A program made the position numbers and the translations under genes. From Skermania sp. ID1734 (GTDB lineage Bacteria; Actinomycetota; Actinomycetes; Mycobacteriales; Mycobacteriaceae): a stretch of 64,000 bases of DNA. The notes beneath the pieces were generated by a model that was given only the letters and a program-made list of their open reading frames with translations, was not told the DNA's origin and searched no databases. The DNA lies in contig NZ_VLIY01000005.1 in the NCBI RefSeq assembly GCF_007489285.1, positions 1 through 64,000 of the forward strand. The letters run 5' to 3'. Positions 5,401-47,293 of this stretch are shown here, piece after piece; within the stretch, counting starts at the first letter, position 1; each line of letters begins with the position of its first letter.

Positions 5401-6242
<842 letters not shown>

Positions 6243-6255
6243 TCACCCCGCTTTA

Positions 6256-6288
6256 CGTGCCCGGCTTCCCAAGAGGGAGCCGGGCACG
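6256..6288 (+). terminator. Terminator hairpin after rpf
   Basis: An 11-bp stem with perfect arms (core GTGCCCGGCT / AGCCGGGCAC) lies 14 bases after the rpf stop codon. It has no U-tract, which is normal for mycobacterial terminators. Confidence 0.75.
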
Positions 6289-6313
6289 CGGCGTTTCACC
6301 TCGGTACCGTCAG

Positions 6314-7141
6314 GTGGTGCGCGACGTTCTGGTCGAGACCCCGACCGGCTCGCTGGCTGTCCGCGACTACGGCGGTGCCGGTCCACAGGTGTTGCTGCTG
6401 CACGGCGCCGGCCACAATCTGGAGATTTGGCGTCACGTCATCGAGGCGATCGACGGTGCCGCCCGGGTCGTCGCAGTGGATCTTCGCGGACACGGTCAGT
6501 CCTGTGTCGACGCGTCGTTCACATTGGCCGATCTGGCCGACGATGTGCACCGGGTGTGCACCGCGCTGCGAATGGACTCGCCAATTCTGGTCGGTCATTC
6601 GCTCGGCGGATGGGCCGCGCTAGCCGCCGCGTCGGGCGCCGATATCACTGCCTTGGTGGTCGTCGAAGGCCCCGTGGTGGCGATGCGGAAGCTGTATGAA
6701 GCGCTCGACCTGCCGCCCGGCTACGGCCTCGATGAACTTTCCACGAATGAATTCCACGGTGACGACGCGGCGTGGCGGAAACGCGTGGATAAGTTGAGCG
6801 AACCCGGCTCGGTGGGTCGAGCGGTTCTGGAACGGGCCTGCCTGCGCGGATCGGACGGATTGCTGCACTCCCACCCGCTGACGGACGAATTGCTCGCCGC
6901 GCAGCGCTGCACGTGGCAGCTCGATCCGGCCGTCGCCTACCAGCATGTCGATGCACCGATCAGGCTGGTGCTGGGCACCGAGGTGGACGTGCCACGGCCG
7001 CGGCGGTACGCGAAATTGCGCCGCGCGGCGCTCGATGACTTCGACCGTGTGCAGGTCACCTGGCTTCCCGGCGGGCATCACCTCCCGGTCGACTGCCCGC
7101 AGGCGGTCGCCGATGTGGTGCGGTCGACGTTTCCCGGCTGA
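6314..7141 (+). CDS. Alpha/beta hydrolase
   Basis: A 275-residue alpha/beta hydrolase. The oxyanion HG lies in LLLHGAGHNLEIW (near residue 30), the nucleophile elbow is GHSLGG at 94-99 with Ser96, and the catalytic His is in PGGHHLPVD near the C-terminus. The charge-relay Asp is probably in LGTEVDVPRP. I placed the start at GTG 6314, with GTG 6317 equally possible, because the open frame upstream runs back through the terminator and the rpf gene. It is cytoplasmic with no signal peptide. The substrate is unknown. Confidence 0.85.
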   Translation: MVRDVLVETPTGSLAVRDYGGAGPQVLLLHGAGHNLEIWRHVIEAIDGAARVVAVDLRGHGQSCVDASFTLADLADDVHRVCTALRMDSPILVGHSLGGWAALAAASGADITALVVVEGPVVAMRKLYEALDLPPGYGLDELSTNEFHGDDAAWRKRVDKLSEPGSVGRAVLERACLRGSDGLLHSHPLTDELLAAQRCTWQLDPAVAYQHVDAPIRLVLGTEVDVPRPRRYAKLRRAALDDFDRVQVTWLPGGHHLPVDCPQAVADVVRSTFPG

Positions 7142-26550: not shown

Positions 26551-26596
26551 CCTGTGCGTGTTTTTTCACCGCCCGCGGTGAAAAAACACGCACAGG
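26551..26596. repeat. 46-bp palindromic element, copy 1
   Basis: Two perfect 22-bp arms (26551-26572 and 26575-26596) flank a CC centre. The shared core is GTGCGTGTTT-Y-TTCACCGC and its complement. It lies 14 bases after the stop of the upstream membrane-protein gene, where the RNA hairpin could also end transcription. The same element occurs at 42998-43043 and 43737-43782 with one arm-base difference (T to C) and a changed outer end. Confidence 0.85.
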
Positions 26597-39251: not shown

Positions 39252-39539
39252 CATGGCTCGTTGCCGGTACCGTGCGTCGCCGACACACCGCGTGCATCGA
39301 TGGGGCGCCCGTGGGGGACGCGGCGATGAGCCGAAGTCATCGCTCCACGACATGGTCGCCGTACGCGGTGCCGCGGACCCGTGACCAACTGTGCGCGCCG
39401 TACAAGGCATCGGGACCGTAGAGGCGGTCCTGCGGGCGTCGATGATCGTCGAACGCCTCCGCGACGAATACGAAACCGCACGAATGAAGCTGGCGCGACG
39501 GCCATCTGCGCACAACAAACGAAAGGTAAGGCTCGCCAA

Positions 39540-40337
39540 GTGAGCGAACGCATCACCCTTGAAGTCGTCGATGGCATCGCCTATGCGACCCTCAACCGCC
39601 CGGACAAGATGAATTCCCTCGACTTCCCGCTCATCGAAGCGCTGGCGTCGGTGCCGGCGAAGATCGCCAAGGACAAGTCGATCCGGGTGGTCATCCTCAA
39701 AGGGGCGGGTAAGGCGTTCAGCACAGGAATTGATTTCGCCACGTTCAAGGACACCAAGAAGACCCTCACCAGCTTCGCGAAGCTACCGACCCAGACCACG
39801 AACCTGTTCCAGAAGTGCAGCTGGCAGTGGCGGGAGCTGCCGGTTCCGGTGCTCGCGGTGACGCACGGTCATTGTTACGGCGGTGGTATTCAGATCGCTC
39901 TCGCGGCCGACTTCCGATTCACCACTCCGGACTGCAAGTTCGCGGTCATGGAAGGCCGTTGGGGGCTGATCCCGGACATGACCGGTTCAGTGACCCTGCG
40001 TGAACTCCTGCCCATGGACCTGGCCAAGCGCCTCACGATGACCGCCGAAGTCTTCAACGGAGTCAAGGCCAAGGAATACGGCCTTGTCACAGAGGTCAGC
40101 GATGACCCGATGGCGAGCGCGGAGGCGCTCGCCAAGGAGCTCATCCAGCGTTCGCCGGACGCCCTCGCCGCCACGAAAAAGCTCTTCCACCAAACCTGGA
40201 CCGAGTCGCCGCGCTCGGCGTTCTGGACCGAAACCGTTCTTCAGGCGCGACTACTGACCGGCAAGAACCACCGCATCGCGCGGTCCGCCGGGGCGAAGAA
40301 GGAACCGCCGACGTGGGTCACCCGAACTCTCGACTGA
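39540..40337 (+). CDS. Crotonase-family enzyme (enoyl-CoA hydratase-like)
   Basis: A 265-residue crotonase. The CoA-binding and first oxyanion-hole region is AFSTGIDFATF near residues 62-72, and the second oxyanion element is HCYGGGIQIALAADFRF near residues 109-125. The region EGRWGLIPDMTG is where catalytic Glu residues lie in true hydratases, so one position is Asp here (PDMTG). The start is GTG 39540 after AAGGTAAGG; frame upstream is not coding. It could act on acyl-CoA in the same catabolic block as the DUF2236 and CocE genes. Substrate is not assignable. Confidence 0.85.
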   Translation: MSERITLEVVDGIAYATLNRPDKMNSLDFPLIEALASVPAKIAKDKSIRVVILKGAGKAFSTGIDFATFKDTKKTLTSFAKLPTQTTNLFQKCSWQWRELPVPVLAVTHGHCYGGGIQIALAADFRFTTPDCKFAVMEGRWGLIPDMTGSVTLRELLPMDLAKRLTMTAEVFNGVKAKEYGLVTEVSDDPMASAEALAKELIQRSPDALAATKKLFHQTWTESPRSAFWTETVLQARLLTGKNHRIARSAGAKKEPPTWVTRTLD

Positions 40338-40382: not shown

Positions 40383-40634
40383 ATGCCTTCTAGACCGCAT
40401 GTGCCGGATGATGATGTGCTTGTCACAGGTCACGACGCGCTCGCCGCCGAACTCGGTGCAGCACCACCCGCTGGACTGGCCGACTTGCCCGACGCCTACG
40501 CACAGCGGTTGGCCGACACCCTGGCAACGGCCCGGAAGTCGCAGGCCGCCGAGCTTGCGGCCGCTACCACCGAGGCGCTCCGGCATGTGCCGCGCCCGCT
40601 GCGCGGGACGGTGCGGAAGGTGGTCGGACTGTGA
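40383..40634 (+). CDS. Small hypothetical protein coupled to a helical-repeat protein
   Basis: An 83-residue protein, Ala/Leu-rich, with an amphipathic helix from about residue 38 (AYAQRLADTLATARKSQAAE) and a basic end ([11 protein letters not shown]). GAGGAG precedes the ATG by 8 bases. It overlaps the next gene by 4 bases (GTGA), so the two proteins are made together and may interact. I do not recognise the family. Confidence 0.65.
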   Translation: MPSRPHVPDDDVLVTGHDALAAELGAAPPAGLADLPDAYAQRLADTLATARKSQAAELAAATTEALRHVPRPLRGTVRKVVGL

Positions 40635-42118
40635 GTTCGCTCGCGACGCGCGCGGAGATAGCCAAGCTCGCCGCACTGCTCGGCACCTCCCCCGAGGACC
40701 TTTCCTATCTCGAGCCTTTCGATGCGGTGACGCTGCGAACACTGCGTGAGCAGGCGACCGACCGGCTTTTCGACGCGGACAAAGGCCGCCTCCTCGGCCT
40801 GGCCAAGGCGAGCAAGTTGGTGCCCACGGCGTTGACGGCGAAGATCGCGGAGCACGTTTTCGCGCCGGCGCTGGCTGCTCGGGTTGCCGACCTGGTCGAA
40901 CCGGCGCGCGCCGTGGACATGGCCAAACGGCTGCCGCTGTCGTATCTGGCCGATATGACCCCGCATCTGGATCCGCGGCGGATCGACACGCTACTGGCCA
41001 AAATGCCGATCGACCTGATCCGCGGAGTGGCCCGAATTCTGGCCCAGCGCGGCGAATACGTGACCATGGGTCGGTTCGTCGGTCACCTCGACACATCGGC
41101 CATCGAGGCAACGATCGACGAATTCAGTGATGAGGACCTGTTGCGCACCGGGTTTGTCATGGAACAGCCCGAAATGTTGCCCGAGATGATCCGGATCCTG
41201 CCCGAGGAGCGCCTCCGAGGCGTATTCCGCACGGCCTACGAGCAGCAACTGTGGCCCGAGGCGCTGAACCTGCTGGACTATCTCGACGACGCGACGCGCG
41301 GGCACATGGCAGATGTCGCCGCCGGCGAAGAGGATGCGGTGCTCAATGGGATGGTCGCCACCGCGCACGAACAAGGACTGTGGGACGTCGCCCTGCCGGT
41401 GGTCCGCTCGATGAACCCGCAATCGCGGCGCAGGTTTGCCGAGCTGTCCAGCTTCGAGGACCCGGAAGTGATCGACCGTGTCGTGCGTACGGCCGCATCC
41501 GAGCACCTGTGGGTGGAAATGCTGCCACTCGTGCCGTTGCTGCCGGTGCAGGCTCGGCGCGAAGTCGCCAGGGTGGCGCTCGGCCTCGGGCGCGAGGTTC
41601 ACGACCGTGTGCTCGCCGACGCCTCCGAGCACGACCTGTGGGCGCCGCTGGTCACCCTCGCCGCGGCGATGGGCGACGACGTGGCGTGGGAAGACCTGCC
41701 CTGGGACATCGGCGAAATCGTGGCTGGTCTCGATGAGGCAGAGATGGACACCTTCCTGTCCAACGTTGCCGAGGCGGATCTCTGGGCAGAGGTCCTGGCC
41801 GTCGCCGGGCGCGTGCCGGACGAACAGGTCACCCGCATAGCGCGCCAAGCTGTCGCCATGGACGTGGACGCGATCATCAGCCGCGTCGTCGTGGCGGCCG
41901 ATCGCACGGGTCTGTGGCGGCAGGGACTGGATCTGCTGGCGCGGTTGGACGACGCCACGCTGGAGGAATTGGCCGCGCCCGCCGCGGATCTATCGCCGGA
42001 CCTGCGCCGGCGGGTCGTTGATGCGGCGACGGAGCTGGGCATGCTGGATCAGCTCGGCGCGGTCGGCGTTGCGCTCGCGGCCGGCGTCACGGATCCCCGA
42101 GTGTCGCCGGATCAGTAG
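40631..42118 (+). CDS. Helical-repeat protein with regular 43-residue Leu-Trp repeats
   Basis: A 495-residue protein of unknown function. Residues 60-200 resemble the MgtE N-terminal helical repeats ([20 protein letters not shown]). From residue 200 a unit recurs: A-x-E-x-x-L-W-x-x-x-L-x-L followed by an L/V-rich helix. The Leu of the Leu-Trp pair is at residues 207, 250, 293, 336, 384 and 428, with a degenerate Met-Leu at 471, so spacing is 43, 43, 43, 48, 44 and 43. No membrane segment or catalytic motif is seen. It is probably a scaffold or binding solenoid. Translationally coupled to the 83-residue protein. Confidence 0.8.
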
Positions 42119-42131
42119 TACGGTTTCTCCC

Positions 42132-42572
42132 GTGGCAGCACACGGACCGATCCTCGTCCTCAACGGGCCGAACCTGAACATGCTCGGCACGCGGCAACCG
42201 GACGTCTATGGCCGGGACACTCTCGATGACGTGTTGGAGCTGTGCAGCCGGACTGCTGCTCGGCTAGACCGCGAAGTGGTTGCCTTCCAGTCGAATTCGG
42301 AAGGCGAGCTGATCGACCGGATCCATAAGGTGCGCGGATTCGAGTCTGGAATTGTGATCAATCCCGGCGGGTTGACCCACACCTCGGTCGCGCTGCGCGA
42401 CGCGTTGGTGATTCCTGAGGTGCCGATCATTGAAGTGCATATCAGCAATGTCTATGCGCGCGAAGAATTCCGGCATCATTCGTACGTGTCGCCGATCGCC
42501 ACGGCGGTGATCTCGGGGCTAGGGATTCACGGCTACGCGGCGGCGATCGAGCATCTGGCGCGGATTACGTAG
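42132..42572 (+). CDS. aroQ: 3-dehydroquinate dehydratase, type II
   Basis: A 146-residue type II dehydroquinase, the usual size. It converts 3-dehydroquinate to 3-dehydroshikimate. Conserved elements are [19 protein letters not shown] at the N-terminus with the catalytic Tyr, [30 protein letters not shown] and [17 protein letters not shown] carrying the catalytic His. The GTG start at 42132 gives the standard N-terminus; the open frame upstream lies in the previous gene. It stands alone here rather than beside aroB and aroK. Its last 8 bases overlap the convergent glycerate kinase gene. Confidence 0.95.
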
Positions 42573-43755
42573 CGCTGACATCACGGGCGATGCGTTGCCC
42601 GATGCCGCGCAACAACTCCGCTGCGTTCGCCATCGACTTCGTCTGGTCTGGCTCTCGCTCCGCGAGCGAGTAGCAGGCATCGAAACCGTACTCTCTCAAG
42701 ACTCTTGGGTTGAGAGCACACGTTCCAGCGACCGCGATCACGCGCGCGTCGGCGGCCCGGGCGGCTCTGCTCACGCCGAGCGGGGCCTTACCGGCCAGCG
42801 TCTGGGAGTCGATGCTGCCTTCGCCGGTGATGACCAGATCGGCGCCGCGGACCCGCTCGGCAAATCCGATGACGTCGAGCACCACGTCGATTCCGGGCCG
42901 CATCGCGGCGTTCAAGACCGCTAACCCCGCAAACCCGGTGCCGCCGGCCGCGCCGGCCCCAGGTTGTTCGCGGAGACCTACGCCGACCCCGCCACCCCCC
43001 GTGCGTGTTTCTTCACCGCCCGCGGTGAAGAAACACGCACGGGACCCGACGGCCTTCTCGACCACGTCGGCCCAGCGGCGCAGTGCCGATTCGAGCAGCG
43101 TGACGTCGGCCGGTGTCGCGCCCTTCTGCGGTGCAAAGACCTTCGCCGCGCCGCGCGGGCCGAGCAGCGGATTGTCTACGTCACAGGCCAAGACGAATTG
43201 GGCCCGTCGAACCCCGGGATGCAGGTGCGTCAGGTCTAGCCGGGACACTTTTGCCAATCCGGCGCCCCCGCGCCCGATCGGATGGCCGTTCTCGTCGGTG
43301 ATCACCGCACCCAGGGCCTGCAGCATTCCAGCACCACCGTCGGTGGACGCGCTCCCGCCGAGGCCGATTATCACCTCGCTGCTCCCGCGGTCCACTGCGT
43401 CGACGATGACCTCGCCGAGCCCGAAGGTGCTGGACCCCAACGGCTCTGGTTCGACTAGCGTTGCGAGCCCGACCGCGTTCGCCAGCTCCACGACAGCTCG
43501 GCCGCCACGAATCGCGTACTCGGCGGTGGTCGGCAGACCGGTCGCCCCAGACACCCGAACCGGTACGCGCTGCCAGCCCGCGCCGAGCGCCGCCGCGACG
43601 GTCCCGTCGCCGCCGTCCGCGACCGGAAGCTCCTCGACCCGCCAATCCGGGCGAACGTCCACGATGCCGCGGGCAAGGGCCGACGCCACTTCCGCCGCGG
43701 TGAGTGAGCCCTTGAACTTGTCGGGTGCGATGAGAACCCGTGCGTGTTTCTTCAC
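42565..43755 (-). CDS. Glycerate kinase carrying two palindromic-element copies
   Basis: A 396-residue glycerate kinase of the GlxK/GckA type 1 fold. The N-terminus [19 protein letters not shown] and PVADGGDGT are family signatures, as are [15 protein letters not shown] and [10 protein letters not shown]. It phosphorylates glycerate in glyoxylate or serine metabolism. Palindrome copy 3 covers the start: GTG 43755 inside its arm is the only good in-frame start. Copy 2 sits in frame and encodes [16 protein letters not shown] at about residues 237-252, between a helix and PGAGAAGG where relatives have no such segment. The enzyme may still work, since the insert falls at a domain-linking loop; this is untested. 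Confidence 0.85.
42998..43043. repeat. 46-bp palindromic element, copy 2 (inside a coding sequence)
   Basis: Perfect 22-bp arms at 42998-43019 and 43022-43043 around a CC centre. It lies inside the glycerate kinase gene and keeps its frame. The coded peptide in the minus-strand frame contains [15 protein letters not shown]. Confidence 0.88.
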
Positions 43756-43782
43756 CGCGGGCGGTGAAGAAACACGCACGGG
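43737..43782. repeat. 46-bp palindromic element, copy 3 (over a start codon)
   Basis: Perfect 22-bp arms at 43737-43758 and 43761-43782 around a GG centre. The arms are identical to copy 2 but the centre is reversed, so it is inserted in the opposite sense. It lies 28 bases after the acyl-CoA dehydrogenase stop and covers the glycerate kinase start. Confidence 0.88.
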
Positions 43783-46239: not shown

Positions 46240-46507
46240 TCGATAACTGTACGGTGCGCGGTTTAAACCTGGCTACGGACAACGATTTTGCGTTGCGCCC
46301 TGGAGTCGGCAATGAAACCTGTTGTAGCACAGCACTATTCTTGGCCGCTGAGCTTGGGCCGTCGCATCTGTCCGCGACGACACTTTCTTGGTATTCCCTC
46401 AGCCAAGTTGCGCGCCGCTTGCCCGCGGTGCTCGTACTCTGGTTAGCAGACCCTCGTGTCGTTGACGACGGAGTCGGACCGGGCCGCTTATGCGGGAGGA
46501 GGATGCC

Positions 46508-47293
46508 ATGGCTGCGCCTGCTGTGCCGCACATCGACATCCACCGCGGCGGCGACCGCATGAAGACCCGGGTGTCCTGGCTGGATTCGAAGCATTCGTTT
46601 TCGTTCGGCGAGCATTACGACCCGGACAACACGCACCACGGCCTCTTGCTGGTCAACAACGACGACATCGTCGCGCCGGGTCGCGGCTTCGATACCCATC
46701 CGCATCGCGACATGGAGATCGTCACCTGGGTGCTCGAAGGCAGTCTGGTGCACCAGGACTCGCTCGACCACACCGGCGTGATCTATCCCGGACTGGCCCA
46801 GCGGATGAGCGCCGGCACCGGCATTCTGCATTCGGAAAAGAACGACTCGTGGCGCCTGGGCTTACACGGAAATGGGGCCGGGAGCGAGACCGAACCGGTC
46901 CACTTCATTCAAATGTGGGTCGTGCCCGATCAACCCGGAACCGATCCCGGTTACCAACAACTCGAAGTCGATGAGGCCCTGCGCGGCGGCAGCCTCGTTC
47001 CAATCGCGTCCGGAATGGACAAACACCGCAACGACAGCGCCATATCGATCCGTAATGCCCACGCCGCGTTGCACGTTGCCCGAATGGTCCCGGGCCGCCC
47101 CGTCGTTGTCCCCGAGGCGCCCTACGCGCACTTGTTCGTCGCGCGCGGGGTGGTGGACGCCGAAGGCATCGGGCGTCTTTATGCAGGTGATGCTGTCCGC
47201 TTGAGCCACTCCGGTGGGCAGCGCCTGATCGCCGAGGCGCCGGCCGAGGTGCTCGTCTGGGAGATGCACGCGCGCCTCGGTGGTCTGCGCTAG
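46508..47293 (+). CDS. Pirin-family protein
   Basis: A 261-residue bicupin of the pirin family. The metal-binding motif HPHRDMEIVTWVLEG is near residues 58-72, with further ligands in HTGVIYPG and GILHSEKN. VHFIQMWVVP and a C-terminal RGVVDAEG cupin complete the pattern. Pirins bind iron or other metals and some act as quercetin 2,3-dioxygenases. The ATG at 46508 follows GGAGGAGG by 5 bases, better than the upstream ATG 46490. The 268-bp gap before it shows no gene. Confidence 0.88.
   Translation: MAAPAVPHIDIHRGGDRMKTRVSWLDSKHSFSFGEHYDPDNTHHGLLLVNNDDIVAPGRGFDTHPHRDMEIVTWVLEGSLVHQDSLDHTGVIYPGLAQRMSAGTGILHSEKNDSWRLGLHGNGAGSETEPVHFIQMWVVPDQPGTDPGYQQLEVDEALRGGSLVPIASGMDKHRNDSAISIRNAHAALHVARMVPGRPVVVPEAPYAHLFVARGVVDAEGIGRLYAGDAVRLSHSGGQRLIAEAPAEVLVWEMHARLGGLR

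Follow-up and report, generated by a model that had tools for sequence, protein, structure and literature searches.

Two adjacent genes, coding for an 83-residue protein and for a 495-residue helical repeat protein, represent an unnamed two-gene family which occurs both in Actinomycetota and in Gammaproteobacteria. They are located in the window, that is, in the whole analysed stretch of 64,000 nucleotides from Skermania sp. ID1734. The explanation we prefer, held with slightly less than even confidence, is that the two genes encode a cytoplasmic scaffold or adaptor complex with a groove that can be extended and a cap subunit that can detach, and serving most likely lipid or hydrophobic-compound metabolism. 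Taken separately, it is very probable that the small and the large proteins form one physical complex, a scaffold or adaptor role is about evenly balanced, and the lipid setting is rather less likely than not.

The gene of the small subunit (83 amino acids, 40383-40634, plus strand) begins with ATG, and that of the large subunit (495 amino acids, 40631-42118, plus strand) begins with GTG; both were defined by their open reading frames and translations, the large one, a predicted alpha-solenoid, also by an AlphaFold2 model. The two frames have four nucleotides in common, GTGA, in which the GTG start of the large gene overlaps the TGA stop of the small one. An enoyl-CoA hydratase gene (Pfam ECH_1, 39381-40337) ends 45 bases upstream of the small frame. 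This hydratase is 89% identical to one in Smaragdicoccus (about 5727-6524 of locus L042), where a distance of about 1.4 kb separates the latter from a module copy that belongs to a different group; this may be a coincidence. The frame downstream of the large gene, with a possible GTG start at 42132, is presumably a type II 3-dehydroquinase. It was also observed that a palindrome, in which GTGCGTGTTT[CT]TTCACCGC is separated by 2 nt from its reverse complement, is present three times in the window (26554-26593, 43001-43040 and 43740-43779). Two of these copies fall within the span of a minus-strand frame which we take, by its sequence, to be glycerate-kinase-like, and among the loci examined the exact 16-base core of the palindrome was found only in the window's own.

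The association of the two genes was followed in 25 genomes, chosen because they hold the family, which were searched with a profile of the large protein (A6) and separately with a profile of the small one (A7). Once split matches had been merged, the large profile gave 64 large-gene places, and the small profile gave 59 hits. The small gene was found directly upstream and on the same strand in 58 of the 64 places, at a distance of 3-176 bases from match to match. Conversely, a large gene adjoined 58 of the 59 small hits. The earlier note had supposed that the 83-residue protein may be a partner and had recommended a search for co-occurring genes; this search has now been performed, and it establishes the small gene as a genuine partner gene. 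The lone unpaired small hit had E = 0.003, the weakest paired one 0.006. Rows of A7 came from 14 of the 58 pairs and not from the remaining 44, some of which, in the sister genome G031, are closely orthologous to contributing pairs. Of the six large genes lacking a small gene, four are cut by contig ends, and the other two are an orthologous pair from the genus Smaragdicoccus (L038 in G001:C7 and L063 in G031:C161), preceded by a gene that we consider TetR-like from its sequence. A previous run on 20 genomes of the class had yielded five small hits in the own genome and one other, weak partial hit (E 9e-4). Furthermore, the distances between small proteins and between large proteins were correlated over 37 non-redundant pairs (rho 0.39; null of 2000 permutations with sd 0.06 and maximum 0.21), a value in which co-evolution and shared descent are not separated.

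The large protein had not been recognised earlier as a member of a named family, and the present searches agree, since no match above the cut-off was obtained in Pfam, NCBIfam, PADLOC or PHROGs. For both window proteins Pfam gave sub-threshold matches only and NCBIfam none, and the sequence search of the PDB with the window large protein returned no relative at E <= 1. The N-terminal half had been described as MgtE-type. On the level of the family this finds some support, since 15 of 33 members match Pfam MgtE_N at E <= 0.1, the best of them at 2.1e-6; the window protein itself stayed below the cut-off (E = 0.6, residues 68-128). FliG_M was matched by three of the 33 members at E <= 0.1, the best value being 0.015. 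The absence of an attached transporter domain, also claimed before, was confirmed by the family scans with Pfam and NCBIfam, in which no transporter domain, no CBS domain and no MgtE channel was matched. FliG_C gave no match with the window protein or in the family scan, and the string EHPQ is absent from the window protein. HEAT/ARM families of Pfam were not found at E <= 0.1 in the 33 members, and eight proteins or segments searched with the limit relaxed to E <= 10 gave no such match either. When the family profile was compared with the PDB, PP2A scaffold proteins appeared with E = 0.001 and FliG chains weakly, with E 0.14.

The AlphaFold2 model of the window large protein (16 rows) consists of helices only, with a mean pLDDT of 85.8 and a pTM of 0.72, in line with the helical solenoid that had been anticipated. 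The structures best matched by this model were importin and armadillo ARM proteins with Z of about 10 over about 280-320 residues, and the other rows were designed repeat proteins; all of these are at background level, since with this structure tool Z below about 13 may be background for repeats, a limit that covers the importin, FliG and MgtE rows alike. Viral protein structures gave nothing at E <= 0.001 with the window model. A homologue from Solimonas was modelled together with its small protein as a single read-through chain (pLDDT 82.9; below 50 in the tail and linker, 68-83). Its top structure row was FliG 4fhr_B (Z 11.2, 87 residues, 2.5 A), followed by the MgtE cytosolic domain 8gpv (Z 10.5, 119 residues, 3.3 A) and, on the following stretch, MgtE 8gps (Z 9.9, 98 residues); importins reached Z 8.6 and a third MgtE row, 2yvy, stood level with them at Z 8.3. 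The MgtE and FliG rows were obtained only with this shorter model, and their absence from the list of the window model proves nothing. On the basis of the Solimonas structure rows and the Pfam matches the core (about residues 50-192; 40778-41206, plus strand) may be read as consecutive MgtE_N/FliG-type units, and we read the large protein as a probable core of such ARM-like helices, extended C-terminally by the Leu-Trp repeats. In the window protein the hydropathy of 19-residue stretches is highest near the C terminus, at 1.45. In the Nevskia homologue a 19-residue stretch has a mean hydropathy of 2.2, and closer contact with the membrane would be possible there.

The C-terminal part is occupied by Leu-Trp helical repeats of 43-48 residues, six of them and a degenerate seventh (residues 193-485; 41207-42085, plus strand), which were delimited by shuffling, autocorrelation and a repeat model. 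The Leu-Trp pairs stand at residues 207, 250, 293, 336, 384 and 428 with spacings of 43, 43, 43, 48 and 44, precisely as the earlier note had given them; position 471, which it had already called degenerate, is Met-Leu and has no Trp. A chance origin of the array is excluded, because none of 20,000 shuffles of residues 195-495 produced a chain of six pairs at 41-49 spacing (six pairs at any spacing appeared in one of the 20,000) and because the self-similarity of residues 180-485, the self-alignment proposed beforehand, is highest at offset 43 (z = 7.9; next offset z = 3.2). In the relative from Stenotrophobium there are seven LW or VW pairs at a spacing of exactly 43 residues. Nevertheless, the repeat did not prove to be the mark of the family for which it might have been taken: at least three copies were detected in only 15 of 50 members, the window protein having six and the Stenotrophobium protein seven. 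The repeat model, made of 12 copies from these same two proteins, may for that reason miss diverged copies. The nearest relatives, of 358 amino acids and from the genus Smaragdicoccus, have three copies, thus between these probable orthologues of 495 and 358 amino acids the number of repeats has changed. Common to all members are the first 330 residues or so, and also the small partner, with the one orthologous exception. It is therefore the N-terminal core and the partner that define the family, since the number of the Leu-Trp repeats varies.

The 83-residue protein is mainly helical and ends in a conserved basic amphipathic tail (VPxxLRGxVRKxxGL in the alignment A7). Its last 20 residues have a net charge of +1 to +6 in all 50 small proteins, compared with a median of -3 for the rest of the chain. 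The helices predicted for the small protein of Solimonas (2-15, 21-25, 28-57 and 62-68) follow the same order as those at the N terminus of the window large-protein model (4-17, 21-27, 32-48 plus 51-61, and 66-76), a region that we designate as the N-terminal cap (residues 1-76; 40631-40858, plus strand) on the basis of profile tests and the helix order in the models. When the 50 pairs are set side by side, both proteins display a helix, the pattern LG..P..L..L, a long helix, VP and an amphipathic helix, and in the window pair the distance from LG to VP is 44-45 residues in both proteins.

Profile comparisons suggest that this resemblance reflects common descent: the small protein is likely, though not proven, to be a remote homologue of the cap. 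A profile of the 50 large N termini matched the small proteins of L108 (E 1.1e-6), L034 (3e-4) and L041 (8e-4), with the best of 1967 control pieces at E 0.04, and these three remained on top when their own large proteins were left out of the profile. With the same profile all 50 small proteins were separated from the controls with an AUC of 0.95 and from shuffled small sequences with 0.91; with a profile of gammaproteobacterial large proteins only, the AUC was 0.84 and one small protein exceeded the best shuffle. In HHalign the small protein scored 24.3 against the cap, to be compared with a mean of 10.4 (sd 2.2, maximum 18.1) for 60 shuffles and with at most 15.1 for eight later windows of the large protein. 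On the other side, most small proteins lie individually below the best control (median 4.2 bits vs 11.2), in the reverse search two control pieces outrank the best large N terminus, and the HHalign probability is 34%, or 8% when aligned globally and 6% when the full-length alignment is the target. The result rests on the larger 50-pair profiles: a first profile comparison with 15 small rows gave a probability of 1% or less, and BLASTP with the window's own pair gave no match. Against the PDB, the small-protein profile found nothing convincing (best E 0.33).

The multicopy nature of the module and its spread over two phyla are absent from the earlier note, as is the resemblance of the small protein to the cap. 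The window's own genome contains five pairs, which belong to five separate groups, and Smaragdicoccus niigatensis has 13 copies of the large gene (14 matches, one gene being split). With the window protein alone as query, matches were present in 10 of 61 genomes (the own genome and 60 relatives), several of them in four, and a single-protein scan of genome contigs revealed no relative. The pattern scan of named genomes was carried out with the closer alignment A4, since A1 and A3 were too divergent, and yielded 15 loci at 35-48% identity: in actinobacteria from Smaragdicoccus niigatensis, a Nocardiaceae MAG, Yinghuangia and Actinokineospora, and in Gammaproteobacteria from Stenotrophobium, Nevskia, Solimonas, Salinisphaera and MAGs. 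The family is rare: among genomes sampled across the window's phylum it was found in eight of 396, across the class of Stenotrophobium in seven of 369, and across the phylum of Stenotrophobium in four of 398, where two of the four matches cover the core only. All three counts include the centre genome, with at most three candidates scored per genome. One partial match (L149, in the Pseudomonadota genome G1086) is a protein of about 225 residues, corresponding only to positions 63-242 of the family profile, without the N-terminal cap and, by eye, with no small partner upstream; L150 (G1016) is a similar case.

In the tree of the 50 large proteins the window copy groups with L037 and L062 of the genus Smaragdicoccus (97/87), while the own-genome copy L033 joins nine long forms from the sister group (100/97) and the own-genome copies L036, L035 and L034 are placed in three further supported groups. 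We assume, by sequence, that the genes at 46490-47293 of the window and at 9139-9882 of L037 are pirin-like; the former lies 4.4 kb downstream of the module and the latter precedes it, and their nearness to both modules fits the orthology of the window copy and L037.

Two kinds of gene context were encountered. In nine of the 15 gammaproteobacterial loci examined the module directly follows an RND gene (seven) or a DUF1329 gene (two), and the order DUF1329-BNR-RND-small-large is readable in six of these nine. We take AmeC of the AmeABCD cluster to be a YCF48/BNR-like gene. AmeABCD itself is presented, in the accessible part of its description, as a monoterpene efflux system of Castellaniella handling apolar compounds, with AmeA belonging to DUF1302, AmeB to DUF1329 and AmeD to the HAE3 RND proteins (PMC6394551). 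Genes of the DUF1302 and DUF1329 type are, in the excerpt available of another report, needed for the use of Tween 20 in Pseudomonas putida (PMC10866462). Around the actinobacterial modules no common neighbour emerged, as among 112 neighbours of 28 loci, with genes called by a script of our own, no Pfam family was present at more than six. A WS/DGAT wax-ester/TAG synthase adjoins one module; acyl-CoA dehydrogenases or an enoyl-CoA hydratase lie next to others. Altogether the context gives a rather tentative hint at lipid or hydrophobic-compound metabolism as the setting.

The same context has to be weighed for two other explanations. The MgtE_N-like core and the nine loci with an RND or DUF1329 gene immediately upstream would agree with a cytoplasmic role in regulating or coupling the RND/MMPL transport of apolar compounds, with sensing in the manner of the MgtE N domain; but these nine loci are related, coming from Nevskiaceae or from MAGs whose large proteins group with Nevskia, and at E <= 1e-10 no DUF1329 or RND-type gene was matched in the other six gammaproteobacterial loci or in any of the 46 actinobacterial loci examined (two of them duplicates). 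We regard such a role as improbable. Alternatively, the complex could coat or organise lipid inclusions or storage granules inside the cell, as a structural element whose tail lies on the lipid and whose solenoid recruits lipases and acyltransferases. Here one can point to the lipid-related neighbours just mentioned, to the basic tail shared by all 50 small proteins and to patatin-like genes, which in 24 genomes were found within 2.5 kb of four modules against 0.64 expected and within 6.5 kb of six modules against 1.38 expected. Patatin-like phospholipase genes stand within about 1 kb of L034, L041, L051 and L033, the patatin frame at L034 and at L041, two orthologous cases, being about 600 residues long. 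The corresponding P of about 0.004 is optimistic, however, because the family was picked post hoc, from a tally covering 141 families, and because the four loci include two orthologues. The numbers near the modules (TetR six, patatin four) exceed those of the control, at most one each among the matches listed, in a small comparison whose 120 genes came from 20 regions of two genomes, hand-picked away from modules. Other copies adjoin citrate-synthase, TGT and further housekeeping genes. In our judgement the coat is rather unlikely.

Tightly coupled genes with the small one in front, present in several copies and distributed patchily (the eight of 396 and seven of 369 genomes given above), also recall a toxin-antitoxin-like or otherwise selfish two-gene module. 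This would, however, be a highly improbable identity: four proteins had no PADLOC or PHROGs match at E <= 0.1, the tree groups are common to genera of one family, and to our knowledge large repeat proteins of this kind are unlike the known toxins. Moreover, no relative of the window protein was found among 72,556 plasmid and 50,697 phage records, nor by pattern search in viral contigs, and as these searches were empty the mobile-element reading is without support here. A flagellar-type part, either FliG or an E-ring protein of the MotE/FlgY/FlbB type, would share the MgtE_N/FliG fold class, as far as the accessible sections of PMC13023049 describe it. Against this stand the lack of the EHPQ string and of a FliG_C match, the N terminus of the window protein, which has no strongly hydrophobic stretch, and a neighbourhood in which none of the 25 commonest of 141 families is flagellar, and we disfavour it almost completely.

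In the scaffold or adaptor complex that we prefer, the large protein would form an alpha-solenoid from MgtE_N/FliG-type helices, to which a variable number of Leu-Trp repeats of about 43 residues is added at the C terminus. The small subunit, translated just before the large one and coupled to it, would dock by its cap-like helices on the end of a solenoid, either its own or that of a neighbour; ARM motifs are known to stack between FliG subunits. The basic tail of the small protein might hold the complex on the membrane or another acidic surface, the groove of the solenoid might bind a client protein of the local pathway, and paralogues with different repeat numbers could serve different clients. 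The physical complex, the cytoplasmic place, the function of the groove, the membrane tail and the clients are what we infer. A further-reaching and rather doubtful proposal is that the pair constitutes a non-flagellar assembly system working by FliG-type ARM stacking, where the small protein, as a detached copy of the N-terminal cap, would begin, terminate or connect chains of large subunits, and where paralogous pairs differing in repeat number would form distinct cytoplasmic scaffolds, tethered to the membrane, for lipid or hydrocarbon enzymes; it would extend over actinobacteria and gammaproteobacteria such as Nevskia, Solimonas and Salinisphaera.

The fold class is known, but in the portions available of the literature searched (on the MgtE N domain and FliG, DUF1302/DUF1329, Smaragdicoccus, and Solimonas solenoids) we recognised no description of the pair as a two-gene system. 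If our explanation is correct, it would be a new recurring adaptor system of bacteria, present in two phyla, with a nearly perfect genome-wide linkage and no name in the four family databases searched. The probable homology of the small partner to the cap would offer an immediately testable assembly mechanism, and the pair would extend the MgtE_N/FliG fold beyond transporters and flagella.

Compared with the known systems, the module follows genes of the same families as those of the AmeABCD-type clusters in nine of 15 gammaproteobacterial loci; the part of the AmeABCD report that could be consulted does not mention it (PMC6394551), and the module also occurs without the cluster. As to HEAT/ARM proteins, the importin-alpha rows of the model (Z of about 10) lie within the background for repeats, the family profile reaches PP2A scaffold proteins at E 0.001, and no curated HEAT or Armadillo family is matched. 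FliG is defined by the EHPQR motif and a C-terminal torque domain. The ARM-like motifs of FliG gave the best structure row for the Solimonas homologue together with the weak profile match (E 0.14), whereas the large protein has neither the EHPQ string nor a FliG_C match, and no flagellar neighbours appeared among the 25 commonest of 141 families. The relation between the MgtE N domain and these ARM-like motifs is stated in the sections at hand of PMC13023049, according to which the E-ring proteins MotE, FlgY and FlbB (COG3334) use the MgtE_N fold, as our pair would, in a structural or adaptor role that involves no channel; there MotE is exported and FlgY consists of a long helix and a four-helix head, whereas the large protein is a long repeat solenoid of 495 amino acids, without an evident signal as judged by hydropathy only, and is accompanied by a small partner. 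Finally, the core of the family may have the helical superhelix fold of the N domain of the MgtE Mg2+ channel (PF03448). MgtE, however, also has CBS and transmembrane channel domains, neither of which is matched in the large protein, which instead carries an additional N-terminal cap and C-terminal Leu-Trp repeats and has a dedicated small partner.
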